NCBI GenBank assembly: GCA_002067095.1 | Contig: MVQD01000035.1 | Coordinates: forward strand, 1-64,000 | DNA from: Methanoregulaceae archaeon PtaB.Bin056 | Lineage (GTDB): Archaea > Halobacteriota > Methanomicrobia > Methanomicrobiales > Methanospirillaceae | Direction of reading: 5' to 3' | DNA length: 64,000 nucleotides | Shown: piece after piece, positions 4,463 through 58,827 of the stretch | How positions within the stretch are numbered: position 1 is the first letter of the stretch | How the letters are laid out: every line of letters starts with the position of its first letter | Made by a program: the position numbers and the translations under genes | The notes under the pieces: generated by a model | The model's database searches: none | What the model saw: the letters and a program-made list of their open reading frames with translations, nothing else | What the model was told of the DNA's origin: nothing

Positions 4463-4873
4463 TTAGTCCCCGCCGGGGACATCGATATCCCTTGCATACG
4501 GCTTGATATCGATGACAGGCGTCCCGTCGAGTGCATCCAGCCCCCGGACACGGAGGACACGCCCGTCCACCGCCAGGAGGTCGACGACAGAGAGGGAGAC
4601 GGGGTTTGGCCTGTCCGGCGAGCGGGTGGCAAACACCCCGTGCTCGACGGGGTTGTGCGGAGGCGTCACCCGGAGCGTCGAGCGATTCGCCCTGTCGAAC
4701 CAGCAGAGGACAAAGAGGTGGGTCTTCTCCGCGACCCGGAAGAGCCCCGGCTCGTATGCAGGATCGATCACGATCTCTGAAACTGCGTCAGAGAGCCTTC
4801 CCTGCCGGGGGGCGTCCCCCCTCTCCCTGTAGGGGGACCGGACGTACCCGATTGGGTGGAGCTCGATCTTCAT
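4463..4873 (-). CDS. TrmO/TsaA-like SAM-dependent methyltransferase
   Basis: This 136-residue protein is a member of the TrmO (TsaA/YaeB/VirR) family, whose studied member N6-methylates t6A37 in tRNA using SAM. Family features are visible: the opening IGYVRSPY, the central HLFVLCWFDRA, and the SAM-binding ATRSPDRPNPVSLSV with closing GTPVIDIKPYA. It overlaps the stop of the FmdE gene by ATGA at 4870-4873, so the two are translationally coupled. Its position at the end of a metal-importer operon argues that it may not act on tRNA; compare the second copy at 46829. Confidence 0.82.
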   Translation of the reverse strand: MKIELHPIGYVRSPYRERGDAPRQGRLSDAVSEIVIDPAYEPGLFRVAEKTHLFVLCWFDRANRSTLRVTPPHNPVEHGVFATRSPDRPNPVSLSVVDLLAVDGRVLRVRGLDALDGTPVIDIKPYARDIDVPGGD

Positions 4874-5520
4874 GGAAAACGGCGTTCCCCGCCATGCACG
4901 CGCGACTCGGCGCAGGGGATGCAGACCCTCGAGCCTTCAACGAGCCGGGTCTTTGCGTCGGCAACCGGCTCCCCGCAGCAGGCGCATACCACCGATGCGA
5001 AGATCCGAGCCTTTTGGGGGGGTTCCGGCGGGATCTCGCTGATGCGAAGCAGCGTCTCATCCGGGACCGAGAGGATGCTCATCGTCGCCGCCTTCATCAG
5101 CGACCGGAACTCTGCTTCCTCTTGCGGAGACGCTGCCCCTGAGAAGACCTTCTTCCGGAGGTCGTCCATTGCGGACCGCTCCGGCATGTCGGACTGTGCG
5201 ACAAGGACCCTGATCGCACGCCCGCTCTCGCGGGAGAAGAAGGAGAAGACGTGCTTTCCGTAGTCATGGATGACGAGGTTGCCCTTCCCTGCCGTGCAGC
5301 CGGTCACCACCTGGATGGCGTCGACCCCGCAGGCGTCGGTCTCAGCGATGCAGACGAGCTCCTCGTCGTAGGGCCTTGCGATCCCAAGCGTCCTCATCGC
5401 GGCGGTCGCGACCCGGTACCCGGTCGCAAGCCCCGGGCAGGCATGGCCGTGGAATGCGACGCATTCTTCAAACGAAGGGTAATGAGAGTGGAAATGGGTT
5501 CCTTCCTGGTTTTCACACAT
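4870..5520 (-). CDS. FmdE family protein with C-terminal zinc ribbon
   Basis: This is an FmdE-domain protein of ~216 residues. The metal-binding signature FHGHACPGLATGYR sits near the N-terminus, with the conserved Cys of VTGCTAGKGN further on. The C-terminal ~40 residues form a four-cysteine zinc ribbon (CACCGEP and CIPCAES). The family was named after a protein co-purifying with Mo formylmethanofuran dehydrogenase; the actual function is unproven, and a metal or cofactor chaperone role is often suspected. The ATG at 5520 has AGGTG upstream. An ATG at 5559 overlapping the importer ATPase stop by 8 bases is the alternative. It is coupled to TrmO downstream. Confidence 0.85.
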   Translation of the reverse strand: MCENQEGTHFHSHYPSFEECVAFHGHACPGLATGYRVATAAMRTLGIARPYDEELVCIAETDACGVDAIQVVTGCTAGKGNLVIHDYGKHVFSFFSRESGRAIRVLVAQSDMPERSAMDDLRKKVFSGAASPQEEAEFRSLMKAATMSILSVPDETLLRISEIPPEPPQKARIFASVVCACCGEPVADAKTRLVEGSRVCIPCAESRVHGGERRFP

Positions 5521-5551
5521 AGGTATGCACCTGTTTGTAAGGGAAAGTACA

Positions 5552-6331
5552 TCAATCATTCAGCAGCCCGCAGGCCTCCCCTGCAGGGACCACACACCGC
5601 ACGCCGCCAAGCTCGCCGATGACCACCGGGAGCCCGTACACCTCCTCGATCACTCCGGGGCTGATCACGTCGTGGCCCCCGTGCGAGAAGACCCTGCCGC
5701 CTTTCAGGAAGATGAAGCGGTCGGCGAACCGGAGCGCCTGGTTGAGGTCGTGCATCGTCATCACCGCGGCGATATGGTGCTCGCGCACGATCTGGGCGAT
5801 GATCGAAAGGATATTGACCTGGTTCTTCAGGTCGAGGTTGCTCGTAGGTTCGTCAAGGAGGAGGACTTTTGGCTCCTGGACGATGGCGCGGGCGATGGCA
5901 ATCTTCTGGAGCTCTCCCCCGCTCATCTCGTCGATGTAGGAGAGCCGGAGGTGGTCCATCTGGAGCCGCCTGAAGACCGCGTCCACGACTTTTAAGTCCT
6001 TCTCGGTCACGTCCCAGCCGATGTGAGGTCGCCGTCCGAGAAGAACCGCGTCAAACGCCGTGAGCCTCCCGGTCTCCACCCGCTGGGGGACGTAGCCCAC
6101 TTTCCGGGCGATCTCCATCATACCGAGCCGTGAGAGGTCGTCGCCTTCGAGGAGGATTGCTCCCCCCTCCGGGGTGAGGATCCTGTTGAGGCACTTGAGG
6201 AGCGTGGTCTTCCCGACGCCGTTTGGGCCGAGGATCGCCACGATCTCCCCCTCATTGATGGAGAACGCGATATCTGCGAGCACTTCATGGTTCCGGTAGA
6301 GGAACCGGAGCTCGTCAACAGAGAGGATCAT
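5552..6331 (-). CDS. FecE/BtuD-type ABC importer ATPase
   Basis: This is the cytoplasmic ATPase of a type II importer, 259 residues. It has Walker A GPNGVGKTT near residue 36, the signature MSGGELQK, Walker B VLLLDEPTSNLDL, and the H-loop histidine in MTMHDLNQ. The PHIGWDVTEKD segment is typical of iron-complex/cobalamin transporters. Its ATG overlaps the permease stop as ATGA. It works with the permease at 6328 and the binding lipoprotein at 7449 to import an iron chelate, cobamide or related tetrapyrrole; the substrate cannot be fixed from sequence. Confidence 0.92.
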   Translation of the reverse strand: MILSVDELRFLYRNHEVLADIAFSINEGEIVAILGPNGVGKTTLLKCLNRILTPEGGAILLEGDDLSRLGMMEIARKVGYVPQRVETGRLTAFDAVLLGRRPHIGWDVTEKDLKVVDAVFRRLQMDHLRLSYIDEMSGGELQKIAIARAIVQEPKVLLLDEPTSNLDLKNQVNILSIIAQIVREHHIAAVMTMHDLNQALRFADRFIFLKGGRVFSHGGHDVISPGVIEEVYGLPVVIGELGGVRCVVPAGEACGLLND

Positions 6332-7398
6332 CTGCGGTACCCCCTGAGCAACAGGTAGATGAAGACCGGCGCACCCATGAACGCGGTCAGGACCGCGACA
6401 GGCAGCACGTAGGGTGCGACGATAAGCCGTGCCACTGTATCCGAAGCAAGCAGGAGGATTCCGCCCATCACGCAGGAGCCTGCAATAAGGTATCGCTGGT
6501 CGTCGCCGATGATCCTTCGAGCCATGTGGGGGCACACGAGCCCCACGAACCCGATCACGCCGAGGAATGCGACGATCACCGCTGAGACAAGGGCGGCGAC
6601 GACCATGCCCACCAGGCGCACCCGTTCGACGTTCACCCCGAGGCCCTTCGCGGTCTCGTCGCCGGCATCGATCGCGTTGTAGTTCCACCGGTTCGCGACA
6701 AAATAGATCGTCGCTCCCGCGACAATGACTGCGATCAGCGCAAGCTCCGGCCAGTTCGCCCGTGAGACATCCCCAAACGTCCAGAAGACGACGGCTGCAA
6801 GCTGGGCGTCGTTTGAGAAGAACTGGAGGAACATGGTCCCGGCAGTAAAGAGCGAGGAGAGCGCGACTCCTGCAAGCACCATCACCTCCGGCGACGCCCC
6901 CCGGATCCGCGAGATGAGCAGGATCACAGCGGTCGCGAGCAGGCAGAAGAGGAATGCCATGATGGTGGTCAGGTAGGGGTTGTTGATGGTGACTGCATCC
7001 GCAACCCTCGACTGCATGGTGCCGGTCCCGAGCACGATGACCGAGACCGCAGCCCCGAATGCCCCCGCATTCGAGATGCCGAGGGTGAACGGCGAGCCCA
7101 GGGGGTTGCGGAGGATCGACTGCATCGCAACGCCCGCAACCGAGAGCCCCACGCCTGCCGCGATCGCCGTCAGTGCCTGAGGGAGCCGGATGTTCCAGAT
7201 GATGGCGTCCCACTTGTGGGAGACGTTCTGGCCAAGGAGTGTCGCAATGACGTCAGAAATGGGGATCTCGACTGCGCCGACCGAGATCGAGTACACAAGG
7301 AGGACGAGGAGGACAAGAAGTCCCCCGAGTATCCAGAACACCTTGTTCCTGACATAGCCGAGGTAATCGGCAGGGACCTCTCCGTCTGCAAAGTGCAC
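6328..7398 (-). CDS. FecCD/BtuC-type ABC importer permease
   Basis: This is a membrane permease of 356 residues with about ten helices. It carries family motifs RLPQALTAIAAGVGLSVAGVAMQ and the coupling-helix region GVIGFVGLVCPHMAR. The NPLGSPFTLGISNAGAFGA stretch is diagnostic for the iron-siderophore/vitamin B12 permease family. The start is a GTG preceded by GAGG. It sits 50 bases after the substrate-binding protein gene and overlaps the ATPase by four bases. As a homodimer it forms the channel of the importer encoded at 5552-8609. Confidence 0.92.
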   Translation of the reverse strand: MHFADGEVPADYLGYVRNKVFWILGGLLVLLVLLVYSISVGAVEIPISDVIATLLGQNVSHKWDAIIWNIRLPQALTAIAAGVGLSVAGVAMQSILRNPLGSPFTLGISNAGAFGAAVSVIVLGTGTMQSRVADAVTINNPYLTTIMAFLFCLLATAVILLISRIRGASPEVMVLAGVALSSLFTAGTMFLQFFSNDAQLAAVVFWTFGDVSRANWPELALIAVIVAGATIYFVANRWNYNAIDAGDETAKGLGVNVERVRLVGMVVAALVSAVIVAFLGVIGFVGLVCPHMARRIIGDDQRYLIAGSCVMGGILLLASDTVARLIVAPYVLPVAVLTAFMGAPVFIYLLLRGYRR

Positions 7399-7448
7399 CC
7401 TGCCTCACCCCTCTTCCTGTGCTGCGCCGGTCGTGGTCATGTCCGTAT

Positions 7449-8609
7449 CTACACCGGGATCTGCGAGAACGCGAACCCTCCATACTGGCTGTTCATCTGC
7501 GAGAAGACCGGCTTTCCTACAAAGAACGTGTAGATCTCGTCTGCCTTCTGTACCGGGTCAATGTCTGCAAACCGGTCGGGGTAGAGGACCTTGCCCACGA
7601 AGTAGGCATCTGCAAACACCGACTCGTAGTTCGTGTTGTAGAAGTTGTAGGGGAGCACCCCGTAGACCCTGCCTTCCTTTACCGCTGAGAGGCCCTTCAG
7701 CGCCGGGTCGTCCTTCAGTTCCCCGACCGCACCCTGGTTGTCCATCTGGAGTGTCCCGACATCGATGAAGAGGTATTCAGGATCCCAGTCGACGAGGGCC
7801 TCCCTGGCAATGTCGGCGTGTTCTGTACCCAAACCGGCAGCAACGTTCTTTGCATGCACCCAGAGGAACGGCGGGTACGCAGGCTCGGTGGAGATGATCC
7901 CGTGGGCACCTGAAAGCGATACCCCGCCGACGTACACTCTCTTCTGTTCGGCTTCGGGGATGTCGCCAGTCCGTTTCTCGAGGTCGGCGATCATCGCTTC
8001 GATGTAGGCGATCAGGTCCTCGGCGCGGTCCTGCTTCCCGATGGCCTGCCCCATCAGGCGGAGACCGCCGTACATCTCGGCCTTCTCGGCGTCATTGCGC
8101 AGGGAGCCGTACGGGAAGGCGACGACCGGGATACCTGTCTTCTCCTGGAGCTTGTCGGCTTCACCGGCGTTCGTTGCGGATGGCTGGCCTGTAGTTCCGG
8201 TCTTTAAGACGACCTGCGGGCCTATCCCGATGATCTTCTCGGGGTCGTCCTTGCCCCTGAACTCGCCGATGAGCGGCAGGGATTTGAACTGTGCACCCCA
8301 CGCGAGGGCATAGGGGCGACCTTCGATGGCCTGGTCCTTCTTCTCGATGCTATCCACGCCGACCACCAGGTCCTGCCCGCCAAGGTAGACCAGGTAGCGC
8401 AGGCAGCCTGAACCCGAGCAGACCACGCGCTCAAGGGGTACCGGGACCGTGACATCCCTTCCGAACCCGTCCTTCAGGTTGAGCGTGGCCGCTTTGCCTG
8501 ATGTTGAAGGTGCTTTTGTTTCAGGTGCGCTGTTGCTCATGCAGCCCGCAATCGCGAGCATCGCGCAGAGCAGGAGTGCCAATGAGAGAATAAGAGGAAA
8601 TTTCTTCAT
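7449..8609 (-). CDS. Iron-complex/cobamide-type ABC substrate-binding lipoprotein
   Basis: This is a secreted, lipid-anchored binding protein of the TroA/BtuF fold, ~386 residues. A hydrophobic signal ends in the lipobox LAIAGC. The mature domain opens with LKDGFGRDVTVPVPLERVVC and contains a cysteine pair, CSGSGC, just before LRYLVYL. The closing PDRFADIDPVQKADEIYTFFVG is shared with the two paralogues at 60946 and 62481. The start is set at the ATG at 8609; an in-frame TTG lies three codons upstream. It is first gene of the importer operon continuing through FmdE to TrmO. Confidence 0.9.
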   Translation of the reverse strand: MKKFPLILSLALLLCAMLAIAGCMSNSAPETKAPSTSGKAATLNLKDGFGRDVTVPVPLERVVCSGSGCLRYLVYLGGQDLVVGVDSIEKKDQAIEGRPYALAWGAQFKSLPLIGEFRGKDDPEKIIGIGPQVVLKTGTTGQPSATNAGEADKLQEKTGIPVVAFPYGSLRNDAEKAEMYGGLRLMGQAIGKQDRAEDLIAYIEAMIADLEKRTGDIPEAEQKRVYVGGVSLSGAHGIISTEPAYPPFLWVHAKNVAAGLGTEHADIAREALVDWDPEYLFIDVGTLQMDNQGAVGELKDDPALKGLSAVKEGRVYGVLPYNFYNTNYESVFADAYFVGKVLYPDRFADIDPVQKADEIYTFFVGKPVFSQMNSQYGGFAFSQIPV

Positions 8610-8760
8610 ACTTCTCAATGTTTTTTTACATATTATTTCAATATAATCAAATTATCATCATATTATAGATAAGAGAATACATTCATCTGTATGAAAGAAT
8701 TTGCAGGAATTTTCAACTTCATATATAATGCATATTTTTCCAGGCATCCATTTTGCTACT
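8610..8760 (-). promoter_or_regulatory. A/T-rich promoter region of the first importer operon
   Basis: The stretch is strongly A/T-rich compared with its surroundings. Read on the minus strand it has AATAATATG about 25 bases before the start and further TATA-like runs around 8641-8660, which fits an archaeal promoter with a short or absent leader. No clear operator could be assigned. Confidence 0.45.
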
Positions 8761-8835: not shown

Positions 8836-11800
8836 TTACTGCTTCGCAGCGTGCCGTTTCAGGTGCGAGACCTGTTCTTTCCAGGCCTTCATCTCTTCCG
8901 GGCTGAACACTTCGATCGCACCGCCCTGGCGGTCTCCGGAAGATACGCCCATCTCGTCCTCGAGGTCACCTTCGATCTGCAGGTAGACCGCCCTTAATTC
9001 CTCCAGGACCTCGTCGTCCGCCTGCCACATCCCGCGTGCCTGGGCTTCGAGGAGCCTCCTCCCCATCTCTTCCATCGCCCAGATGTTGTGCTCCCTGAAG
9101 AACTCGCGGTTTTTTTCGTCCAGGAGGAACGTCCGTGCAATATCGTCGAAGATCCTGTCATCGACCTCCCCTGTGGTGGCGTCCCACCCAAAGACCCTGC
9201 CGGCCCGCTTGGAGAGTTCCGCGGCTCCCGCGTACCCGTGCTCCTTCAAGGCATCGATGTACTGGGGGTTCAGGAGTTTTGTCCTGACCACCCGGCGGAG
9301 CTCATCTGCGAGGGTCCGCACATCGACCTGCGAGGTATTCCTCGTGTCTCCATAGTAGGCGGAGACCTCTTTGCCTGAGACCTCCCGTGCCGCGGCGGTC
9401 ATGCCGCCATGGGAGCCGAAGTAGCAGCAGCACCCGAGGAGGTCGTATTCGTCGGTCGCGGTCTTGTTGAAGGTCACGTCGACGGTCCGCAACTGGGAGA
9501 CGAGGTGTTCTGTCGACTTCTCCCCAAAGACCCCCCTGCCGTAGGAGTACCCGTTCCAGTAAATGAAGACATCCGCAAGGTCGCTCACATCATCCCAGGC
9601 CGAGGCGTAGACCGCGAGGTTGACCCCCATTCCATACGTCCCGCGTGGCGCGCCGAAGATCCTTGGGCCGATACCTCCTTCGGCCGAGTGCTTCCGGAGA
9701 TAGTTCCACTCAGGCGGCTCGTCGAGGGCGGCCACCGCCCGGATGGCATCGTCCAGGAATTCGACGCACCCAAAGAAGCAGTCCCGTAAGATACCGCTCA
9801 CCCTGACCGTGATATCGATCCTCGGTCTCCCGAGACGCTCGAGAGGGATGATGCGAACACCCTTCAGCCTCCCGTGCTCCCGGACGGGTTCGGCGCCGAT
9901 CAGGGCCAGGGCCTGCGCACACTGCTCCCCGTCGGCCCACATGATGTCCGAGGCCATCCAGAGGAGTGCCACGTTCTCGGGGTAGCTCCCATGCTCCTGC
10001 CGGTGGCGCTCAACCAGGATCCCGGCAAGCTTTGTCCCTACTTCCCAGGCCGCCTCCGTCGGGACCGACGATGGGTCGAGGGAATAGAAGTTCCTCCCGG
10101 TGGGGAGTATCCCGGTCTTTCCCCGGGAGAGGAGACCGGAAGGCCCCGGTTGGATATATCCACCCCTCGTCCCATTGATCAGGCTCCCGATCTCGTCCGA
10201 GCGGTCGAGTGCACGGGATATCTCCCGCACTTCCCTTTCCAGGGACGCGAGCCCCCCTTCGTCGATTCTGACCAGGCTGTCCCCGAGCACCCGCCCGGGC
10301 GCCTGCGGGAGCCCCTCTCCTTCCAGGATCCGGGAGACCAGGTCCTCCGAGAACCCGTCGAGCACCCGCACAAGCGCAGTCTCCGACGGGGATATCCTTT
10401 CATCGAGCCCCATCATGCCGGCAATGAGCCGGTGGAGGTGCCCGTCATGGTTCAGGATGGGCGCGATGAACCGGGCACGCGTGCGGCCGGCCGGAATTCG
10501 CCCGAAGACGTGCATCCCCTCCGGGATGCGGGTGCCGTAAATGCCCGAGATCAGCCGCCCGGCACCCTCAAGGAGGCGTTCGAACGCGGCAGGGTCGTGA
10601 AGGGATGTCAGGATACCCAGTTCTTTGTCGAGCCCCTCCTTTGTGACCAGGTCAATGATCTGGTGCTGGAGGGCATGGGCCCGTGCCCCATCCGACCCGG
10701 CGAACTTGTGGTACTCTGCGATCTTCTCCTCGAGATCCTTGAGGACCCCGTAAGGGCTTGTCGGGGCCATCACCGTCTGGAGGTGATCGATGATGGTCGC
10801 CCCGGCCCTGCGCTTGGCGATGGTGCCCTCTGACGGGTTGTCGGAGTTGTAGATATACAGGAGGGGAAGGTCTCCGAGGATCGCATCGGGCAGGCACTCA
10901 TTCGATGGCGCGACCGACTTTCCGGGCAAAAATTCGAGGGAGCCGTGTGTGCCCACGTGCACGATGAGGTCTGCCCCAAAGACACGCTCGAGGTAGCGGT
11001 AGACCGCGAGATAGTGGTGGGGAGGGGGGACTTGTGGGTCATGCAGGATGCGGCAGACCTGCCCGTCGCACCGGGAGCCGGCGCATCCCCGCTTCGGCTG
11101 GGTGCAGACGACGGCGTTTCCAAACGAGAGGCCGGGTATCACCATCTTCCCATCATAAAGCATCGCGGGCGGGACGCCGTCCTTCGCCTCTCCCGGGGGA
11201 TCTCCCCACGTCTCGGCGATGCGGGACCGCAACGGCGCGGGAAGCTCGGAGAACCACTCGTCGTAGGTTTCCTTTTCTACCATCCCGAGCGCCCCGCCGC
11301 GCTTCACGATGTCCTGGACCGTGGTCCACCGGAACTCATTTATGGCACGCCGGTCAAGGATTGCCTTTGCCAGGGCCTCGCCACTCTCGGGTGCCTCCAC
11401 GCAGAACCCCTCCTCTTTCATCCGGGAGAGGATATCGGCGACGCTCTGGAGCGTGTCCAGGTGCGCTGCGGCCCCCACGTTCGCCTCCACCGAGGCGCAG
11501 GCTGAGCTGTTCAGGACAAACGCGACCCTCTTCTCCGCGGGAGGCTTTTCCCGGAGCCTGATGAGGCTTCCGATCCTCCTGACAAGGGCCCGGATACGCT
11601 CCCTGACCGGCGAGTGCCAGGCATGTCCGGGACCAAGGGGCCCCTCGGCCATGGCACTTGCGACCGGGATCATGCCGGTCATCCCGTACATCTCGGGAAG
11701 CACGACGGACCAGCCCAGTTCGATGCTGCCCATGCCGTCAAGGCTCTCCTTCCACTCCTCCTCGGTCCGGTAATACAGCATCAGGGGGTGGACGACCGGG

Positions 11801-12558
11801 ACGCCGAGCGCCTCGAAGACCCTGACAGGCTCATCCGGGTCGTGGGAGAGGGCGGAAGACTGGAGGCAGACGAGCGCGTCCACATCCGGCAAAAACCTCT
11901 GGATCACTTCGGTGGCATCGAGAGCTCCCGCCGACGAATCCCCGGTCCCTACCGAGAAGACCGCGATCGCGTTGTATTCGCGCTCGCACTCCCTGATGAG
12001 CGCATCGATCGCCTGGAGGTCCCCGTTTGCCCAGTAGATCCGGTAGAAGAGGATGCCGATGGTATGCGGCTTTTCCCTGCCCCGCCACTGCCAGTACTCG
12101 TCCGCGGTGGAAAATACCCGGGGTGCGTCCGGGTGATACACTCCCTCCCAGAGGTAAAGCGAGGGTTCCTCCCACGTCACCGGCAGCGAGAGGACCCTCC
12201 CCTGGATGAACCGCACCAGGTTCCGCATGTTGTCGCTCCCGCCGTAGATGAAGTAGGCGTTCACCGTTGCGGTGACAGGAAGCGGGACAGTCGAGAGAGT
12301 CCAGAAGGACTGGTCGTGGCCGAACGATATGACAGGGACTCCCGGAGGGAGTGCGGGGATGAGCGTGTCCCAGTAGGCGTCATTGGTGGGGTGGAGGAGG
12401 ATGATGTCCGAGTCTCCCAGTTCGCGGATGCAGGAGTCAAGATACGCGGGGTCCCTCATGCGGTACGTCGGATGTGCCCGGAGGGACACCCCTGTCTCGG
12501 CTGCGGCGGTCACGAGCATCGGGATCTCGCTCCCCCAGACGATTGCAGTCAGGCGCAT
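8836..12558 (-). CDS. cobN: CobN/BchH-type large chelatase subunit
   Basis: This is a cytoplasmic protein of 1240 residues, the usual size for CobN. Family landmarks are VHVGTHGSLEFLPGKS near residue 535, IYNSDNPSEGTIAKRRAGA soon after, ADGEQCAQALALIG near 880, and FGAPRGTYGMGVN near 970. CobN is the substrate-binding subunit that inserts Co(II) into a corrin ring, working with AAA+ partners. Here it starts three bases after an importer ATPase and no CobS/CobT follows, so a role in processing an imported tetrapyrrole (as with CobN-like HmuS in haem loci) is a real alternative. The ChlI/ChlD-type protein at 44677 could be its motor. Confidence 0.88.
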   Translation of the reverse strand: MRLTAIVWGSEIPMLVTAAAETGVSLRAHPTYRMRDPAYLDSCIRELGDSDIILLHPTNDAYWDTLIPALPPGVPVISFGHDQSFWTLSTVPLPVTATVNAYFIYGGSDNMRNLVRFIQGRVLSLPVTWEEPSLYLWEGVYHPDAPRVFSTADEYWQWRGREKPHTIGILFYRIYWANGDLQAIDALIRECEREYNAIAVFSVGTGDSSAGALDATEVIQRFLPDVDALVCLQSSALSHDPDEPVRVFEALGVPVVHPLMLYYRTEEEWKESLDGMGSIELGWSVVLPEMYGMTGMIPVASAMAEGPLGPGHAWHSPVRERIRALVRRIGSLIRLREKPPAEKRVAFVLNSSACASVEANVGAAAHLDTLQSVADILSRMKEEGFCVEAPESGEALAKAILDRRAINEFRWTTVQDIVKRGGALGMVEKETYDEWFSELPAPLRSRIAETWGDPPGEAKDGVPPAMLYDGKMVIPGLSFGNAVVCTQPKRGCAGSRCDGQVCRILHDPQVPPPHHYLAVYRYLERVFGADLIVHVGTHGSLEFLPGKSVAPSNECLPDAILGDLPLLYIYNSDNPSEGTIAKRRAGATIIDHLQTVMAPTSPYGVLKDLEEKIAEYHKFAGSDGARAHALQHQIIDLVTKEGLDKELGILTSLHDPAAFERLLEGAGRLISGIYGTRIPEGMHVFGRIPAGRTRARFIAPILNHDGHLHRLIAGMMGLDERISPSETALVRVLDGFSEDLVSRILEGEGLPQAPGRVLGDSLVRIDEGGLASLEREVREISRALDRSDEIGSLINGTRGGYIQPGPSGLLSRGKTGILPTGRNFYSLDPSSVPTEAAWEVGTKLAGILVERHRQEHGSYPENVALLWMASDIMWADGEQCAQALALIGAEPVREHGRLKGVRIIPLERLGRPRIDITVRVSGILRDCFFGCVEFLDDAIRAVAALDEPPEWNYLRKHSAEGGIGPRIFGAPRGTYGMGVNLAVYASAWDDVSDLADVFIYWNGYSYGRGVFGEKSTEHLVSQLRTVDVTFNKTATDEYDLLGCCCYFGSHGGMTAAAREVSGKEVSAYYGDTRNTSQVDVRTLADELRRVVRTKLLNPQYIDALKEHGYAGAAELSKRAGRVFGWDATTGEVDDRIFDDIARTFLLDEKNREFFREHNIWAMEEMGRRLLEAQARGMWQADDEVLEELRAVYLQIEGDLEDEMGVSSGDRQGGAIEVFSPEEMKAWKEQVSHLKRHAAKQ

Positions 12559-12561
12559 GGG

Positions 12562-13335
12562 TTATATGTTCCCGACGGGTTCAAGAGGGACAATCAATGG
12601 ATACCCGTCTTCTCTTCCGACCCTCGCGGACACGCCGTACACGTCCCGTATCAGCTCCTCGGAAAGTATCGCGGAGGGCGTGCCCTGACCGGCAATCCTG
12701 CCGTGGTGGAGGACCAGCAGCCTGTCGCAGTACCGGGCAGCGAGGTTCAGGTCATGGATCGCCATCAGGCCCCCGATCCCCTTCTGGTCCACCACAGAAC
12801 GGATGATCTGCATGACCTCGAGCTGGTGGCGGAGGTCGAGTGCGCTCGTCGGCTCATCGAGGAGGAGGAGAGAGGGGTCCTGGACGAGGGCGCGGGCGAT
12901 CACCACCTTCTGGCGCTCACCGCCGCTTATCTGGGTCACCTTCCGAAACGCGAGGTGGGAGATCTTGAGGCGCTCGAGCGCTTCGCTGACCATCCCGATG
13001 TCTGATTCCCCCACCCCCCAACGGACGTGGGGCCTCCTCCCCATCAGGACCGACTCAAAGACCGTCATGGCCATCCCGACAGAGAGTGCCTGGGGGACAT
13101 ACGCAAACAGCCTGGCACGCTCCGAACTTCCCATGCGGGAGACGTCCTGCCCCCCGAAGTGCACGCTCCCCCTTGGGACCAGGACGCGGTTGATGCACTT
13201 GATCAGGGTGGTCTTCCCGCAGCCGTTTGGCCCGAGGACGCCCACGAGTTCGCCCTCATCCACTTCGAGGGTGATCCCCTCGAGGACGCGATGGTCCTGG
13301 TAGGAGAAGGAGAGGTCCGAGACTTCGAGCTTCAC
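12562..13335 (-). CDS. FecE/BtuD-type ABC importer ATPase (second system)
   Basis: This importer ATPase has 257 residues. It shows Walker A GPNGCGKTT, signature ISGGERQK, Walker B LLLLDEPTSALDL and H-loop MAIHDLN. The GTG start overlaps the permease stop as GTGA (13332-13335), so translation is coupled. It is about as divergent from the ATPase at 5552 as ordinary paralogues, so the two importers probably carry different ligands. CobN follows after three bases, which is a strong functional link between this transporter and the chelatase. Confidence 0.92.
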   Translation of the reverse strand: MKLEVSDLSFSYQDHRVLEGITLEVDEGELVGVLGPNGCGKTTLIKCINRVLVPRGSVHFGGQDVSRMGSSERARLFAYVPQALSVGMAMTVFESVLMGRRPHVRWGVGESDIGMVSEALERLKISHLAFRKVTQISGGERQKVVIARALVQDPSLLLLDEPTSALDLRHQLEVMQIIRSVVDQKGIGGLMAIHDLNLAARYCDRLLVLHHGRIAGQGTPSAILSEELIRDVYGVSARVGREDGYPLIVPLEPVGNI

Positions 13336-14393
13336 CAGTACTCCTCCTTCTGGCGCATGAAGAGGTAGAGGAAGAACGGGATCCCGATGAACGCCGTCAT
13401 GATCCCGACAGGGATGATCTGGGGTGCGAGGATGGTGCGGGCAAGGCTGTCTGCACCAAGCAAAATGAGGGCTCCGACAAAGCCCGATGCCACGATCAGG
13501 TAGCGGTGGTCCCCGCCGATGGCAAGCCTCGTGATGTGGGGGGAGACAAGCCCTATGAACCCGATGGTCCCGGTGAAGCAGATGATGGATGCAGTAATAA
13601 GCGATGCGATCAGCATGTGGACGGTCCGGGTCTGCTCGACTTTTACCCCCAGGCTCTGGGCCACCTGGTCGCCCATGCCGAGCGCGTTGAGGTCCCACGC
13701 CCGCCAGACGAGGAGGGGGGTGGAGACCGCGACCACCAGAGTGACCAGGGCAAGTTTCTCCCACGAAGTGTTCTGGAGGCTCCCGAACATCCAGAAGACC
13801 ACGGCCTGGAGCTGCTCCGTGGTGCCGGTGTACTGGAGAAACGAGGTCATTGCCCCGAAGAGGTACATGAGGATGATCCCCGCGAGCACCATGCTCTCGG
13901 CAGAGACCCCGCGGTACCGCGAGAGGCCGTAGATTGCGATTGCGGCAAGGGCGCTCATCGTGAATGCAGAGACCACGAGCGCGATCTCGCCCGAGAGCGC
14001 GGTGGGGACAAAGATGATGGCGATCGCCGCCCCGAACGTCGCCGCGGAGGCGATGCCGAGGGTAAACGGGCTCGCGAGGGGGTTCCGGAGCACCCCCTGC
14101 ATCACGGCGCCTGCGATCGCAAGCCCAAACCCCGCCACCACGGCGAAGAGGACCCGGTGGAGCCGGAGGTCCCAGACGATGGTGAACGCGAGAGGGTCTG
14201 CAGAGAACGAGCCCGGAAGAATCCCTGCAAGCACTGCGACACACACCTCCTCAACCGTGAGCCCCGCGGACCCGATGATGGTCGAGCCGACCGCAAGCAG
14301 GATGATTCCCACCGCGAGGACCGCCACAAAGAGGAGCCTCTTTGCCTGCATCTGCAGGTACCGGCCGGCGATCTTCTCTCTCTCGTCCTCCAT
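13332..14393 (-). CDS. FecCD/BtuC-type ABC importer permease (second system)
   Basis: This membrane permease has 353 residues and about ten helices. The FecCD signature regions GAVMQGVLRNPLASPFTLGI and GTIGFIGLVSPHITR are intact, the latter being the coupling region for the ATPase. It lies 14 bases after the binding protein gene and overlaps the ATPase gene. It forms the membrane channel of the CobN-linked importer. Confidence 0.92.
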   Translation of the reverse strand: MEDEREKIAGRYLQMQAKRLLFVAVLAVGIILLAVGSTIIGSAGLTVEEVCVAVLAGILPGSFSADPLAFTIVWDLRLHRVLFAVVAGFGLAIAGAVMQGVLRNPLASPFTLGIASAATFGAAIAIIFVPTALSGEIALVVSAFTMSALAAIAIYGLSRYRGVSAESMVLAGIILMYLFGAMTSFLQYTGTTEQLQAVVFWMFGSLQNTSWEKLALVTLVVAVSTPLLVWRAWDLNALGMGDQVAQSLGVKVEQTRTVHMLIASLITASIICFTGTIGFIGLVSPHITRLAIGGDHRYLIVASGFVGALILLGADSLARTILAPQIIPVGIMTAFIGIPFFLYLFMRQKEEYW

Positions 14394-14407
14394 TCCGCTA
14401 CCGCTCC

Positions 14408-15616
14408 TTATCTTGCCGGGTACACGAACCGGGTCGGGTCCGCAAGGCCGGGGTCAAGGCCCTGGAACTCCTGGAGGTATGTCCGGTGCAGCGATTCCGG
14501 GTCCAGTTCGCCCGCCCTGTCGGGATGGAACCACCTGGCCATGTAGGTCACGCCGATCAGGTACTGCGGGCCCCCGACGATCGCGTTATGGAGCACGTAC
14601 ACCCTCCCGTCCCGGACGGCAGGGATGCTACCCCACCCGGCCCGTCCTGCGAGCGTGTCCCTGACCTCGGCAAAGCGGGTGCTGTTCTCCCCTGAGTATC
14701 CGCCAAAGATGTACTTCCCTGAACCCGCAAGCTTGATCACGACGTCGGGCTTCCTGGCGATGATCGATTCTGGATCGATCTCGGGGTACTCGGCAGGGTT
14801 GTCGCGGAAGATGTTGGCACCCCCGGCCATCGTGACCTTGTCATGATAGCCTGAACCCCTGGCTACCGTCTTGTAATCGTTCCAGGTCTCGAAGTAGACC
14901 TCGGGGGGTGCGGCGGATGCGGCGACCGATCCAACCCTCGCAAGCGCTGCGGTATAGAACGAGGCGAGGCGGGCGCCTTCCTCCTCCTTTCCAAATACCT
15001 CCGCGACTCGGGCCGCATCCTCGAGATACGTCTCAGGCCGGTAGCAGTCGATCCGGAAGACCGGGAGATCGGGCCTTGATGCCGTGACCCGCCGCTCGAT
15101 CTCGTCGCACTCTGCCCTGCTCACCGATGCGTACAGGAAGAGTGCATCGGGGCGAAGCGAGAGCATCTTCTCGTAATCAGGGGCCCATATCGACCCTACC
15201 GAGGGGTACCCCGCGTACTCAGGGAAGAATTCCGGCTTCTGCGCGATGTACTTGTCCACGGCCACGATCCTCTCTTTTCCGACCCCAAGCGACCGCATCG
15301 TCTCAAGGGTCTCGCTGTTCATCACGATGATGCGGCGGAGCGGGCGCGTGAGGGTGAGGCTCTTTCCCGAAGAGTCGGTGATCGTCCGGGGAGTCCCGCC
15401 CCAGTGGACGTAGATCCATGCGGCATCCCGAAGGTCAGAGATTGAGGCAGCCGGAAGTGCAGTGCCCCCTGAGAGGTGCCCAAGGACAGAGGAGGCGAGC
15501 TCTTCCCTTGCGATGACGCCGTTGCCATCCAGGTCGCCGGGGAGTGCGGCATCGGCAAGCACCAGGGGGCAGAGGACCGCGATGACCGCGATGACTGCCA
15601 CCGCGAACCTGTTCAT
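14408..15616 (-). CDS. ABC substrate-binding protein with N-terminal EF-hand/dockerin-like segment
   Basis: This is a secreted binding protein of ~402 residues. A signal peptide ends near LADAALPG and is followed directly by a calcium-loop-like motif GDLDGNGVIAREELASSVLG, resembling half of a dockerin or an EF hand. The rest is a TroA/BtuF-type fold beginning at TPRTITDSSGKSLTLTRPLRRI. There is no lipobox Cys, unlike the other three binding proteins in the window. The ATG at 15616 has GGAAGGG upstream and overlaps the preceding gene as ATGA. The Ca2+-type segment could dock the receptor onto another surface protein, perhaps the one encoded immediately upstream. Confidence 0.87.
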   Translation of the reverse strand: MNRFAVAVIAVIAVLCPLVLADAALPGDLDGNGVIAREELASSVLGHLSGGTALPAASISDLRDAAWIYVHWGGTPRTITDSSGKSLTLTRPLRRIIVMNSETLETMRSLGVGKERIVAVDKYIAQKPEFFPEYAGYPSVGSIWAPDYEKMLSLRPDALFLYASVSRAECDEIERRVTASRPDLPVFRIDCYRPETYLEDAARVAEVFGKEEEGARLASFYTAALARVGSVAASAAPPEVYFETWNDYKTVARGSGYHDKVTMAGGANIFRDNPAEYPEIDPESIIARKPDVVIKLAGSGKYIFGGYSGENSTRFAEVRDTLAGRAGWGSIPAVRDGRVYVLHNAIVGGPQYLIGVTYMARWFHPDRAGELDPESLHRTYLQEFQGLDPGLADPTRFVYPAR

Positions 15617-16137
15617 TGCCCTTCCCTCCCGCGTAACCTGCACCGCGCCGCACCCACGAATGCAACCCCGGCCATGGCGAGGAGGAGGGGAAGAGGGGGT
15701 CCGGCTTTCGGGGTCACGGCCGTGAGCGGGACTGCCGGAGGTACTTCGGCGCCCTGCATGCCGTCACCGTGCACCCCCACTGTCCCTTCCTCCCCGGAGA
15801 GGTAATCCGTCCACGTCCCCCTGATCGCCCCCGCAGAGTCCGGGGGTCCATGCATGAGGTAAGAGACCTCACGTTCGCCAATTACCGCAAGAAAGAGCGT
15901 CGTCCCCTCGACCCTGTACTGGTCAGGGGGCAGTGAGACCTCGCTTACCTCGGTTCCCGGGGGGAGGACCTCGACTATCCCTGCAACCGTCTCTGCGGGC
16001 AGAGTCAGCACGACACGGGAAGTGGTCGGTTCTGCAGGCTCGATGGACCGCTCGACGATGCCGGCTGCTGCCCCCTGGACCAGCATGGCGCAGAGAAAAA
16101 AAGAGACGATCCCGGTGATGAGGTGCCCTCTCTTCAT
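15613..16137 (-). CDS. Small membrane-anchored surface protein heading the CobN importer operon
   Basis: This protein of ~174 residues has an N-terminal signal (GIVSFFLCAMLVQGAAAG), an extracellular beta-rich domain and a C-terminal hydrophobic helix (PLPLLLAMAGVAFVGAARC) followed by Arg-rich residues. This is the layout of an archaeal surface protein with a C-terminal anchor. The middle (AGIVEVLPPGTEVSEVSLPP, then YLMHGPPDSAGAIRGTW) recalls a beta-sandwich domain common in methanogen surface proteins next to dockerin segments; that resemblance is my inference. Translational overlap with the dockerin-like binding protein suggests the two cooperate at the cell surface. No enzyme motif is present. 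Confidence 0.7.
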   Translation of the reverse strand: MKRGHLITGIVSFFLCAMLVQGAAAGIVERSIEPAEPTTSRVVLTLPAETVAGIVEVLPPGTEVSEVSLPPDQYRVEGTTLFLAVIGEREVSYLMHGPPDSAGAIRGTWTDYLSGEEGTVGVHGDGMQGAEVPPAVPLTAVTPKAGPPLPLLLAMAGVAFVGAARCRLRGREGQ

Positions 16138-16386: not shown

Positions 16387-17343
16387 ATGACCCCGATCGA
16401 GACCGTTGCCCTGACAAAATACTACGGATCACTCTGCGCAGTGGACCACCTTGACCTCTCCATCGGAAACGAGATCTTCGCCCTCCTCGGCCCAAACGGC
16501 TCCGGGAAGACGACGACAGTGCTGATGCTCACCACGCTGCTCCGGCCGACCGAGGGGTCTGCACGGATCTGCGGACACGACGTCGAGCGTGATGCAGGAG
16601 AGGTGCGAAGGCTCATCAGCTACGTGCCCCAGGACATGGCTGTCGACATCAAGCTGACCGGGAGGGAGAACGTGGCGCTCTTTGCAAAACTCTACGGGAT
16701 ACCGCGTCGTGACGAGACCATCGACCGCGTGCTCGAAATGATGGACCTCTCGGAACGGGCCGACGACCTGGTCCGGACCTACTCGGGGGGGATGCGCCGG
16801 AGGCTCGAACTTGCCCAGGCTCTCGTCCACGAGCCGAAGGTCCTCTTCCTTGACGAGCCCACGATCGGGCTCGACGTCGCGGCAAGAAAGAAGATCTGGG
16901 AGCACATCCGTACCCTCAAGTCCCGGGGGATGACCATCTTTGTCACCACCCACTACATGGACGAGGCCGACCACTTCTGTGACCGCGTCGCGATCCTCGA
17001 CCACGGAAGAGTGGCCGCAGTCGACACCCCCGCCCGCCTGAAGGGAAGGCTTGGAAAAGACCTCATCAGTGCGAGGGTGAGCGGGGGGTGGTCGGGGGAC
17101 CTCCCCGCAGGGATCGAGCGCCTCGGCGAAAAGGAGAACGGGGAGTATCTCTTCTCATCAGACCATGCGTCCGAGAAGGTCCCGGTGCTCTTCCGCTGGC
17201 TCGAGGAGCACGGGGCTGTCATCCACTCCCTCTCTGTCCGGGAACCGACCCTCGACGACGTCTTCCTCGCGCTTGTCGGGTCAAGGGACGATGTGACGGG
17301 GTTCGACGACCACAGGTTCAGGACGATGCTCCGGAGGAGATGA
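16387..17343 (+). CDS. DrrA-type ABC exporter ATPase
   Basis: This ABC-2 family ATPase has 318 residues. It shows Walker A GPNGSGKTT, signature YSGGMRRR, Walker B VLFLDEPTIGLD and the H-loop in TTHYMDEADHFC. The C-terminal ~80-residue extension ending in EPTLDDVFLAL is typical of the daunorubicin-resistance (DrrA) group. The stop overlaps the permease start, so the two form one exporter. The substrate is unknown; in archaea such pairs export lipids, drugs or unknown compounds. GAGATGAG directly upstream of the ATG serves as binding site. Confidence 0.92.
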   Translation: MTPIETVALTKYYGSLCAVDHLDLSIGNEIFALLGPNGSGKTTTVLMLTTLLRPTEGSARICGHDVERDAGEVRRLISYVPQDMAVDIKLTGRENVALFAKLYGIPRRDETIDRVLEMMDLSERADDLVRTYSGGMRRRLELAQALVHEPKVLFLDEPTIGLDVAARKKIWEHIRTLKSRGMTIFVTTHYMDEADHFCDRVAILDHGRVAAVDTPARLKGRLGKDLISARVSGGWSGDLPAGIERLGEKENGEYLFSSDHASEKVPVLFRWLEEHGAVIHSLSVREPTLDDVFLALVGSRDDVTGFDDHRFRTMLRRR

Positions 17344-18068
17344 TGAAGGACATCCTCTCTTACTTCGAGCGGGACATGCTCCGGTGGGTGAGGGGGCGCG
17401 TCTCGGTCATCTCCGCCCTTGTCGTGCCCGCCGCCTGGCTCATCTTTGTCGGCCTTGCGCTCCCCACCACGTTCACCGACCACTACATCGACTTCATCAC
17501 GCCCGGGATCCTGGTCCTGACGATGCTCGGGGCCTCGCTCCAGGGGGGCTCCCTCCTTATCTTCGACAAGATCCTCGGGTTCCTGAACAAGTTCCTCGCG
17601 CTCCCCTCATCGCGCGAGAGCATCCTTTACGGGAAGATCCTGTTCATCACGACCAGGGGGCTCATCCAGGCAACCGTGATCCTCCTCCTGGCGTTCGTCC
17701 TCGGGGCGACGTTCCTCTCGCCCTGGAGCCTCGTCATCACCTATGGCGTCCTTGCAGTGTTCGGCGTGCTCCTGTCATCATTCTCCACGACAGTCGCCCT
17801 CTACCTCTCCGACCACGACGCGTATGCCGCCTTCAATGCCATGGTGAGCATGCCGCTCTTCTTCACGAGCAGCGCCCTGATGCCGTATTCCGTCATGCCC
17901 ACGTGGCTTGCGCCCCTCGCGTACTGGAACCCGGTGAGCTATGCAATCGACGCGATACGTGCACTCCAGGAAGGTGCCCTTGCATGGGGGAGGATTGGTG
18001 CGCTGCTCCTCCTTGCCGTGATTGTGGTTGGGATCAGCGTCCGGCAGTTCCGGAAAGTGACACTGTAA
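17340..18068 (+). CDS. DrrB-type ABC-2 exporter permease
   Basis: This membrane protein of ~242 residues has six helices and the ABC-2 permease signature region MPYSVMPTWLAPLAYWNPVS followed by YAIDAIRAL. Two in-frame ATGs (17340 and 17343) overlap the stop of the ATPase gene and share its GGAGGAG binding site. It forms the membrane half of the exporter with the upstream ATPase. A paralogous pair lies at 52395-54148. Confidence 0.9.
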   Translation: MMKDILSYFERDMLRWVRGRVSVISALVVPAAWLIFVGLALPTTFTDHYIDFITPGILVLTMLGASLQGGSLLIFDKILGFLNKFLALPSSRESILYGKILFITTRGLIQATVILLLAFVLGATFLSPWSLVITYGVLAVFGVLLSSFSTTVALYLSDHDAYAAFNAMVSMPLFFTSSALMPYSVMPTWLAPLAYWNPVSYAIDAIRALQEGALAWGRIGALLLLAVIVVGISVRQFRKVTL

Positions 18069-44676: not shown

Positions 44677-46719
44677 TCAGGAAAAGACCCTGGCGAATTC
44701 GTTCCGGGCGATGTCACCGACGACCCCTGCTTTCAGGTCGCTGACGGCGTAATACCTGCCACAGGACTCTTCTGCGATGTCCCTGCAGTAGCCAAGCTGC
44801 ATCTTTAAAAACCCAGACCCTGTCTCCTCTGTGTCGATCACCACCGTGTGGATGCCACGGGAGCGGAGTGCCTGGGCAGCGCTGCGGATCTCGGCCCGGA
44901 TATCCCCGCCCCGGGAGACATTGGCACGGCCGTCGGAGATCAGCACCAGCACCGGGACCGCTTCACCGTTCTTCCGCTGTTCGCGGTCAAGCACTTCGAT
45001 TGCTTTCCATATGCCTTCTGCGAGCGGGGTCTTTCCCCCGGTTGGGAGGTCAGCAAGGCTCTTTTTTGCAAGGTCGACACTGTGGGAGAGCGGCAGCAGC
45101 ACATCTGCACGGTCCGCACGGAATGCCACCATCCCGATCCGGTCGCGGTGCTGGTACGAGTCAAGGAGAAGCGAGAGGATTGCACCCTTTGCCGCCTCCA
45201 TCCTCTTCATCGCACCCATGGAGCCGCTCGCGTCCACCAGGAAGACGCAGGACGCCGAGACCTTCCCCACCCTGACACGCTCACGGATATCATCTTCACT
45301 GATGGAGACCGCGAGCGCCCCCCTGGACCTGACCGCCTGGTAGGGGGCGGCAGCCCTGATCGTGGCATCCAGGGCAAGGTCATTTGTCCCGCATGGCATC
45401 CGCGAGGTGATGGGTGAGCCCATCTTTCCCGAGGAGTATGTCTCGATCCGCCTCCCGTTCAACCGCTTCCTCTGTTCCCGGTCCCGGTCACCCGCGAGGA
45501 AGACCCTGCGGGTGTCTATCGGGTCGCCAATGCCTAAGACCCTCTCCTGGGCGGGGCTCTCCTTCTTCTGGGGTGAATTCCTCTGCTCTTCCCCTCCTGT
45601 AACAGGAGGTGCAGGATGAGGGTCCTCTTCCCTCTCCATCTCGGACTGTTCAGGGGGCTCCTTCTGTTCCTGCCGCTGTTCCGCGTTCTTCATCGCGGAG
45701 TCGAGCCGGTCGGGGTCGAGCCTCGGCTCCTCGAAGGGCTTTCGCCGCATCCGGTGAGGGAGTGCAAGCTCCATCGCCTCCCTCACGTCATCGAGTGTGA
45801 CTTCGCATCTCCCGTCGAGGGCTGCGAGAGTCCTTGCCGTCCTCGCGACAGCGATCTCTGCCCTGTGCGTCTTCACCCCGAGTTCCACGCAGGCGTTCAC
45901 GAGCGCCCGGAGGATATCCTCAGGGACTGTGACAGTGGGCAGGATTTCCCTCGCCTGTATGATAGTGTTCCGGAGTGCCTCCTGCCGGTTATCGAACCCC
46001 TGGGAGAACCCTGCAGGGTCGATATCGAATGCCTCTGCATTCCGGACGATCTCCATCCGCATCTCCGGGTCCTCCAGTGCCTCGACCGAGACCTGGAGCC
46101 CAAACCGGTCCAGGAGCTGGGGCCGGATCTCCCCTTCCTCGGGGTTCATCGTCCCGATGAGGATGAAACGGGCCGGGTGGGAGAACGAGATCCCTTCCCT
46201 CTCGACAACGTTCACACCGAGGGCCGCCGAGTCAAGGAGGACATCGGCTATATGGTCGTCGAGCAGGTTCACCTCGTCGATATAGAGAATTCCCCTGTTC
46301 ACTGCCGCAAGGATCCCTGGCTCAATGGCCTTTTTCCCTTCCTTGATCGCTTGCTCGATATCAATGGTCCCCACCAGGCGGTCCTCGGTGACCCCAAGGG
46401 GGAGGTCGACCACCTTGACCCTCCTCGTGATATGTTCCAGGGGAATGCCATTAACAACCTTCTCTGCGCAGTGCTCGCACATCTCCCTTTCGTCACGGGG
46501 ATTGCACTGGAACGGGCACCCCTTCACGACCTCTATTTCCGGGAGGAGTTCTACGAGTGCCCGGACGGCGGTGGACTTCGCGGTCCCCTTCTCGCCGCGG
46601 ACCAGCACGCCGCCGATGCGGGGGTTGACCGCGTTCAGGAGGAGGGCCTTCTTCATCTTCTCCTGGCCGACGATGGCGGTGAACGGGAGGATGGTGCGGC
46701 GGGGGGAAAAAGTAGTCAT
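44677..46719 (-). CDS. ChlI/ChlD-type AAA+ and VWA metal-chelatase motor protein
   Basis: This cytoplasmic protein has 680 residues. An N-terminal AAA+ domain (~1-340) has Walker [10 protein letters not shown], Walker [13 protein letters not shown], the LLDRFGLQV sensor region and a cysteine pair set, GCPFQCNP and CEHCAEK. A charged Glu/Pro/Gln linker (~350-420) leads to a VWA domain (~490-680) with intact MIDAS DASGSMG. It thus combines the I and D subunits of magnesium chelatase in one chain, as in many archaea. It would power a large CobN/BchH-type subunit, for which CobN at 8836 is the only candidate in the window. No other chelatase gene adjoins it. Confidence 0.88.
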
Positions 46720-58425: not shown

Positions 58426-58827
58426 ATGGAAAAGAAAGGATTACTGCTTGTCGGGCATGGGAGTTCCCTTCCCTATAATAAAGAACTTGCAGAGACTGTT
58501 GCTGCGATGATCCGGGAGGCATGTCCGGAGTACATCGTGAAATGCGGCTTTATGAGGATCAACCAACCGACGATACCGGAATCGCTCGAGGCATTCCGTC
58601 ATGAACCAATCGATCTGCTCGTGGTAGTGCCGCTCTTCCTGGCGGACGGGATCCATGTCGCGAAAGATATTCCGTCGCGGATCGGGCTTCCGGAAGGAGA
58701 GAAAAGGTTATCGTTTGAGATAAATGGGAGGTCTATTCCTCTGGTCTATGCGGATCCTATCGGTGCGGAACCATTGCTGGCCGATTTGATGGTCAGGAAT
58801 GCACGCAAAGTGCTTGCACAAAATTAA
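58426..58827 (+). CDS. CbiX-type short sirohydrochlorin chelatase
   Basis: This cytoplasmic chelatase has 133 residues, the size of archaeal single-domain CbiX proteins. The N-terminal metal ligand appears in LLLVGHGSSLPYN and the second in PLFLADGIHVAKDIPSRI, matching the two-histidine site. The family inserts Co into sirohydrochlorin for cobamides or Ni for coenzyme F430 (CfbA). Length and motifs do not separate the two activities. GAGGT precedes the ATG. It stands alone between the metal ATPase and an MsbA-type transporter; it may be an extra paralogue. Confidence 0.85.
   Translation: MEKKGLLLVGHGSSLPYNKELAETVAAMIREACPEYIVKCGFMRINQPTIPESLEAFRHEPIDLLVVVPLFLADGIHVAKDIPSRIGLPEGEKRLSFEINGRSIPLVYADPIGAEPLLADLMVRNARKVLAQN

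Follow-up and report, generated by a model that had tools for sequence, protein, structure and literature searches.

A six-cysteine CobN-type chelatase encoded with an ABC importer in a Methanoregulaceae archaeon: a candidate import-coupled tetrapyrrole metal chelatase

Results

The window analysed here is a stretch of 64,000 nucleotides (contig MVQD01000035.1, positions 1 to 64,000 of the forward strand, assembly GCA_002067095.1) from Methanoregulaceae archaeon PtaB.Bin056 (order Methanomicrobiales), in which we focus on a five-gene operon (8836-16137, minus strand) that encodes, in order of transcription, a small surface protein (hereafter SURF), a substrate-binding protein (SBP), the permease and ATPase of an ATP-binding cassette (ABC) importer, and a CobN-type chelatase. 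According to the list of open reading frames (ORFs), the five genes are separated by tiny gaps or overlap. Together with a motor subunit encoded elsewhere in the window, the features are:

8836 to 12558, minus strand: CobN-type class I chelatase large subunit of a six-cysteine branch, 1240 amino acids (PF02514, 1153.6 bits)
9424 to 9432, minus strand: cleft codons 1043-1045 of CobN, Cys-Cys-Cys, at the position of HmuS L1207/D1208/H1209
11053 to 11085, minus strand: loop I codons 492-502 of CobN, with C492, C497 and C502 (RGCAGSRCDGQVCRILHDP)
12562 to 13341, minus strand: ABC importer ATPase (PF00005; best NCBIfam match a corrinoid ABC transporter ATPase, below cut-off)
13332 to 14393, minus strand: FecCD/BtuC-type permease (PF01032, 290.8 bits; best NCBIfam match BtuC, below cut-off)
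14408 to 15643, minus strand: substrate-binding protein (PF01497, by Pfam)
15500 to 15535, minus strand: EF-hand/dockerin-type calcium-binding loop of the binding protein (DLDGNGVIAREE; coordinates computed from the translation)
15613 to 16137, minus strand: SURF, ATG start at 16137, with an N-terminal signal/transmembrane helix, a beta-sandwich of about 95 residues and a C-terminal transmembrane anchor
44677 to 46719, minus strand: ChlID, a fused AAA+ (ChlI) and VWA (ChlD) protein and the likely partner of CobN (TIGR02442, 787.6 bits against a cut-off of 779.45)

The tight operon described in an earlier, sequence-only reading of this DNA is borne out: a 14-base gap separates the binding protein gene from the permease gene, the permease and ATPase genes overlap by 10 bases, a 3-base gap precedes the CobN gene, and an alternative ATG of the binding protein gene (at 15616) overlaps the SURF stop codon as ATGA. 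With PF01497, PF01032 and PF00005 in one operon, the importer is of the BtuFCD/FecBCD type. The binding protein, in which a simple pattern scan found no lipobox, scored at best 51.9 bits against NCBIfam (under every cut-off) and carries a single, canonical EF-hand/dockerin-type loop near its start. Dockerins have a two-repeat layout, and no dockerin Pfam model matched the binding protein at E 0.1; the dockerin-like receptor of the sequence-only reading thus stands as to the loop, and not as to a dockerin match in Pfam. SURF had no Pfam or NCBIfam match in profile searches, and its AlphaFold model (mean predicted local distance difference test, pLDDT, 82.1) places a predicted beta-sandwich between two helices, for which the best structural match was a CBM2-type carbohydrate-binding module (CBM; Z 11.8), cohesin-like modules ranking lower (Z 8.6-8.9). 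Cohesins and CBMs have related folds. The loop was found in 31 of 102 binding proteins from related loci, and 7 of the 21 related loci with a SURF homologue have it as well; calcium-dependent docking of the binding protein on the SURF anchor is a fair inference.

CobN is matched over its whole length by PF02514 (cut-off 24.5 bits), and the curated CobN equivalog cut-offs were not reached (NF004646.0 scored best, with 1399.5 of the required 1468 bits, and the remaining CobN models also fell under theirs). Its AlphaFold model (residues 85-1210, pLDDT 88.6, falling to a mean of 55 in the block that holds residues 495-504) confirmed the six-domain fold of CobN, ChlH and HmuS, the best PDB match being Mycobacterium tuberculosis CobN (7c6o; Z 42.1, 987 residues aligned), with ChlH at 40.5 and HmuS at 36.3. 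As it has no transmembrane anchors (best 19-residue Kyte-Doolittle means of 1.16 at the N-terminus and -0.02 at the C-terminus, against 2.21 and 2.97 in HmuS), the protein is likely to be cytoplasmic, like CobN. PF02514 and a search with the protein itself each give one match in the genome (95.65% complete). Nearly full-length CobN-like genes also occur in two phage-labelled records (OQ572414.1 and MT837301.1; 2 of 50,697 records match).

In an unrooted tree of 79 sequences (the window CobN, 60 from relatives and 18 from named plasmid records; support by the Shimodaira-Hasegawa approximate likelihood ratio test, SH-aLRT, only) three main branches were recovered. One contains bacterial and haloarchaeal CobN with an archaeal clade III, another HmuS, HmuS-like proteins, BchH and archaeal clades IV and V, and the third (SH-aLRT 100) unites clade I, which includes the window CobN, with clade II. 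The window protein therefore has a branch of its own, outside the clade of CobN from cob/cbi loci, and a second tree with named loci added agrees on the branches.

The hallmark of this third branch is a set of six cysteines, located within the active cleft and next to it, that sets it apart from both HmuS and ordinary CobN. All 42 clade I and II sequences in the tree, the window's included, carry the loop I motif RGC-x4-C-x4-C-x3-H and the cleft motif GCCCYF (or nearly so), and none of the six cysteines occurs in any of the 37 other chelatases. Among 79 named loci, collected by a scan whose patterns exclude the six-cysteine sites, 73 have all six, five have one changed and one is a fragment; the two sets overlap (L123 and G011, for example, are the same genome) and are not independent. 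In the window CobN, C502 falls at HmuS Phe502 and C1044/C1045 at Asp1208/His1209 (the cleft pair being His-Asp in HmuS and Asp-Asp in ordinary and solved CobN), while H506, H538 and E577 are kept. According to the HmuS structure paper (PMC12583661), loop I gates the cavity, and Phe502 and His506 are predicted to lie near His538 and His1209. On the simple reading the six cysteines would form a metal-holding thiolate site; an iron-sulfur cluster is possible. A literature search that covered few subscription journals found no description of the signature or of the system.

The AAA+/VWA motor partner typical of biosynthetic CobN is represented by ChlID (Pfam domains AAA_lid_2, VWA and Mg_chelatase); it is intact and within the window, and we therefore reject the notion that the system has no motor subunit. 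The sequence-only reading was correct that the operon itself has no CobS or CobT (neither was searched under its own models), but it overlooked this equivalent motor. With at least 300 bits taken as a strong ChlID match, and G116 left out of the CobN counts (30-residue match only), CobN and ChlID occur together in 38 of the 121 genomes of the order, CobN alone in 7, ChlID alone in 1 and neither in 75 (Fisher and permutation values take related species as independent). Four of the CobN-only genomes (G019, G076, G086 and G101) have HmuS-like CobN only, G004 has a cut CobN beside DUF2149, and G118 a fragment; of the 37 genomes of the order with six-cysteine CobN, 36 have ChlID.

Across families, clade I loci repeat the arrangement SURF-SBP-FecCD-ATPase-CobN, in many cases together with ChlID and a DrrAB-type exporter in divergent orientation, and the cassette extends beyond the order to Methanocellales, Methanosarcinales (Methanomethylovorans, Methanolobus), anaerobic methanotrophic (ANME) archaea and anaerobic bacteria. 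CobN homologues from other families and from bacteria stand in the same gene order, so the arrangement in the window is not due to chance. Two bacterial loci of the branch read nikR - TonB receptor - SBP - FecCD - ATPase - Gate protein - CobN - ChlID - ExbB - ExbD (L197) and TonB receptor - SBP - FecCD - ATPase - Gate - CobN - ChlID - TonB (L188), where NikR and the TonB receptor were identified by family search, and ExbB, ExbD and TonB by our own reading of the sequences. B12 and haem are examples of the large complexes that TonB receptors transport. By ORF clustering, FecCD or SBP lies within 6 kb of CobN in 18 of 28 clade I, 13 of 13 clade II and 47 of 78 named loci (FecCD in 30/78 of the latter, ChlID likewise in 30/78); many contigs are short, which keeps these counts below the impression gained by eye. 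In four g20 genomes the gene for clade I CobN belongs to a cbi cluster or adjoins one (gene order cbiD-cbiE-cobN-cbiA in L052 and L056).

Other CobN neighbourhoods showed features of their own. Clade II islands (L043, L044, L045, L046, L047 and others; G022, G037, G044, G069) have extra NikR copies and a DrrAB exporter nearby, often with ChlID-FecCD-ATPase in divergent orientation. In clade III loci (L057, L049, L060, L059, L063), split ChlI/ChlD, an importer and CbiZ have two nitrogenase-like proteins nearby, one of them a NifH-NifD-like fusion, and these loci may represent a new type of tetrapyrrole reductase pathway. Tandem binding-protein arrays, many with a dockerin-type loop, surround the six-cysteine CobN of L195 and L201 (Methanothrix and a Methanosarcinales archaeon).

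The genome has a cobalt-early corrinoid gene set, with CbiX/CfbA: CbiD and CbiF score above cut-off, the neighbours of CbiD were read by us as CbiL, CbiF, CbiG, CbiH and CbiC, and a CbiA-type protein is encoded on the window's contig. Genes for coenzyme F430 synthesis (CfbB, CfbD and CfbE) lie beside a CbiX, and a further CfbA-type small chelatase lies in the window near a P-type ATPase (58426-58827; NF033198, 144.1 bits against a cut-off of 120). The CbiX in the F430 cluster (C106) is the second of the genome; most relatives have one CbiX match. We label the organism methane-producing-type on account of its F430 genes and its near relatives Methanolinea, although the alpha and beta subunits of methyl-coenzyme M reductase were not found in the genome (an assembly gap or a real loss). 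Throughout the order, CbiD is present in all 45 CobN-bearing genomes, which points to some tie of CobN to corrinoids, and in 64 of the 76 CobN-less ones, from which it follows that CobN is not needed for the cobalt-early route.

The operon is flanked by two further transport systems, the exporter being a recurrent neighbour of this CobN branch:

4870 to 8618, minus strand: second FecCD importer, directly downstream (Pfam)
4870 to 5559, minus strand: its FmdE-family protein
5552 to 6331, minus strand: its ATPase
6328 to 7398, minus strand: its permease
7449 to 8618, minus strand: its binding protein
16387 to 17343, plus strand: DrrA-type exporter ATPase, divergent from the operon
17360 to 18068, plus strand: ABC-2 exporter permease, divergent from the operon

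FmdE-family proteins adjoin metal-type ABC importers on one contig at 4870-5559 and 50156-50599 of the window (by Pfam) and at L119:13271-13936 (by eye). Between the operon and ChlID (18824-43981) extends a long array of DUF3344/PKD/CARDB/PEGA surface proteins. The window contains no tRNAs, and no RNA elements at gathering score.

Discussion

Building on the gene order and its conservation, the branch identity, the cysteine signature, the co-occurrence with ChlID and the corrinoid and F430 gene sets, we propose that the operon encodes an import-coupled, ATP-driven tetrapyrrole metal chelatase with a role in salvage or under metal scarcity, to which we give a probability of roughly one half. 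The dockerin-type loop would probably tether the binding protein to the cell surface by docking on SURF, the cohesin/CBM-like protein anchored in the membrane, and the ring that the binding protein passes to the FecCD-ATPase importer would be a corrinoid or a related compound. Once the ring is in the cytoplasm, CobN would insert or exchange a metal (most likely cobalt) with ChlID as its motor, the three lid-loop and three cleft cysteines holding the incoming or outgoing ion. Such handling may operate alongside the normal early insertion by CbiX/CfbA. The suggestion of the sequence-only reading that CobN is coupled to import, and not to de novo insertion, is supported only by context, namely by the CobN-less relatives that keep CbiD and by the bacterial runs of TonB receptor, SBP, FecCD, ATPase and ChlID.

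Among the systems described so far, CobN of CobNST (M. tuberculosis 7c6o, Brucella-type 9uk9) shares with the window protein the six-domain fold, the lack of membrane anchors, an AAA+/VWA partner and the equivalents of H538 and E577; the window branch differs in having Cys-Cys at the Asp-Asp of the cleft, a three-cysteine insert in loop I, ChlID instead of CobS/CobT, and an importer in the operon. Haloarchaeal CobN-ChlID (HVO_B0051/B0050 type) has in common an archaeal CobN, a ChlID-type partner and cobalt-early hosts, and a salvage role for it has already been suggested (PMC8305020); this CobN, however, groups with the bacterial proteins, has none of the six cysteines and adjoins cbi genes, not an importer. 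ChlH/BchH of magnesium chelatase has the same fold (ChlH, Z 40.5) and works with ChlI/ChlD, and it differs in branch and cleft residues. HmuS (9d26) and archaeal clade V belong to the same superfamily, and HmuS is linked to uptake genes; they are, in contrast, membrane-anchored, have DUF2162/ExbB/DUF2149 neighbours and a His-Asp or Asp-Asp cleft, and the genomes with clade V CobN alone have no ChlID, unlike the window genome.

The sequence-only reading had drawn its analogy from HmuS, that is, from a chelatase reported to strip iron from imported haem. Besides the shared superfamily and the importer next to the CobN homologue, one may cite for this idea the CobN-like 'BtuS' of Methanosarcina barkeri, which changes with iron and sulfur source (PMC10846266), and the conserved H538 and E577 of the cleft, which are nonetheless equally conserved in all ten other sequences compared. 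The haem reading fails on tree, residues, anchors and neighbourhood: both trees put the window CobN on a separate branch, P57, S234, C1044 and C1045 stand at the HmuS haem ligands M79/H254 and cleft residues D1208/H1209, the terminal membrane segments are missing, a ChlID motor is present, the operon has no ExbB-like or DUF2149 neighbours, and DUF2149 is absent from the genome altogether. Moreover, the true HmuS-type proteins of the order belong to another branch and have other neighbours. These clade V proteins (7 loci, 1490-1635 residues; both membrane segments present in the two checked) adjoin DUF2162 (PF09930) and mostly ExbB-like proteins and DUF2149 too; of the 121 genomes, eight have DUF2149, namely G004 and the seven with clade V, and in each of them a CobN lies beside it on the contig. 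We thus reject the haem reading as very improbable. A plasmid of Runella slithyformis (L106) has an HmuS-like CobN, a TonB receptor, an ExbB-family protein and DUF2149 within a cluster for hydrogenase maturation (hypF...hypCDE), a hint of a nickel connection there.

A second alternative, which we hold to be unlikely, is that CobN inserts cobalt late in de novo B12 synthesis, as ordinary CobN does, and that the adjoining importer is incidental. The sequence-only reading had named a CobN/HmuS/BchH tree and a count of CobN paralogues as its checks, and had regarded a sole copy in a corrinoid-producing genome, grouping firmly with biosynthetic CobN, as contrary to its view: the protein is indeed the only CobN of a corrinoid-capable genome, but it does not group inside biosynthetic CobN. 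Late insertion further agrees with the occurrence of in-branch CobN in the cbi clusters of g20, with the restriction of CobN to CbiD-bearing genomes and with the M. tuberculosis CobN as best solved match. It agrees poorly with the cobalt-early gene set, with importer linkage that is conserved as far as bacteria, and with active-site residues unlike those of biosynthetic CobN; the absence of CobN from 64 of 109 CbiD-bearing genomes of the order, that is, from corrinoid-capable relatives, weakens the case for it as a required cobalt inserter.

As to the metal handled by the proposed import-coupled chelatase, cobalt (with a corrinoid ring) is our first guess and nickel our second, because the genome has the cobalt-early corrinoid route and because four relatives have CobN in or beside a cbi cluster. 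In clades II and III, CobN lies 12-30 kb from a second, high-scoring class of CbiZ (all 10 copies in the 9 genomes examined), which points to corrinoid-like rings there. High-scoring CbiZ paralogues also lie about 1 kb from NikR in two CobN-less genomes (G050:C1:1758371-1760010 and G055:C26:33836-35474). In the nickel version, which we consider a minority possibility, the system would take up a nickel-bearing ring (F430-derived or another nickel tetrapyrrole) or serve F430 synthesis under nickel scarcity, with CobN-ChlID moving nickel. NikR is the first gene of the L197 operon, and in L132 it comes after CobN-ChlID. Nickel is favoured in the sister clade II: of the 15 NikR genes on the same contigs as CobN, 9 (random mean 0.66) are no more than 15 kb from it, and these come from 5 of 7 genomes. 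What we read as CooC-like P-loop proteins adjoin L044, L062, L164 and L200. A possible parallel comes from Methanothermobacter marburgensis, in which CobN1 and NikR1 reach high levels only when nickel is limiting (PMC12350162). NikR-type half-sites (12 in 107 upstream regions, shuffle mean 1.8) are only a lead, ranking among other enriched words, some of which stem from coding sequence and close relatives, and neither half-site nor operator was seen upstream of the window operon. Against nickel also stand clade I, in which none of the 13 genomes with NikR on the CobN contig has it within 15 kb, and the presence of the six-cysteine system in bacterial loci. More speculative, and in our view improbable, is a thiolate-site chelatase within an anaerobic 'tetrapyrrole metallophore' cycle, in which a ring released by the DrrAB-type exporter would come back carrying metal, by way of the importer and its dockerin-tethered binding protein (or, in bacteria, of a TonB receptor), whereupon six-cysteine CobN and ChlID would strip or swap nickel or cobalt in the cytoplasm.

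Several observations weigh against the import-coupled chelatase that we favour. ChlID lies 32 kb from CobN in the window, outside the operon, and G007 (99% complete) is a true exception, with a six-cysteine CobN and no strong ChlID match. Many named loci, partly on short contigs, show no importer within 6 kb, and the linkage of CobN with cbi genes is confined to one genus. The ligand of the binding protein has no family-level assignment, nor can it be given one, as all its NCBIfam matches are below cut-off. Lastly, neither the common fold nor the conservation of the cysteines is proof of a reaction.

The use that archaea make of CobN/HmuS/ChlH homologues was described as unclear in the 2025 HmuS structure paper (PMC12583661), given the lack of complete hmu operons and of aerobic chlorophyll and cobalamin pathways. 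Our analysis splits this puzzle into separable branches, one of them HmuS-like and another (that of the window) with six cysteines, a ChlID motor and an importer, which spans methanogens, methane oxidisers and anaerobic bacteria. If the proposal is true, the six-cysteine branch would allow methane-cycling microbes to take up scarce cobalt or nickel and use it for metallation, through an active site whose residues differ from those of the solved chelatases in our comparison.

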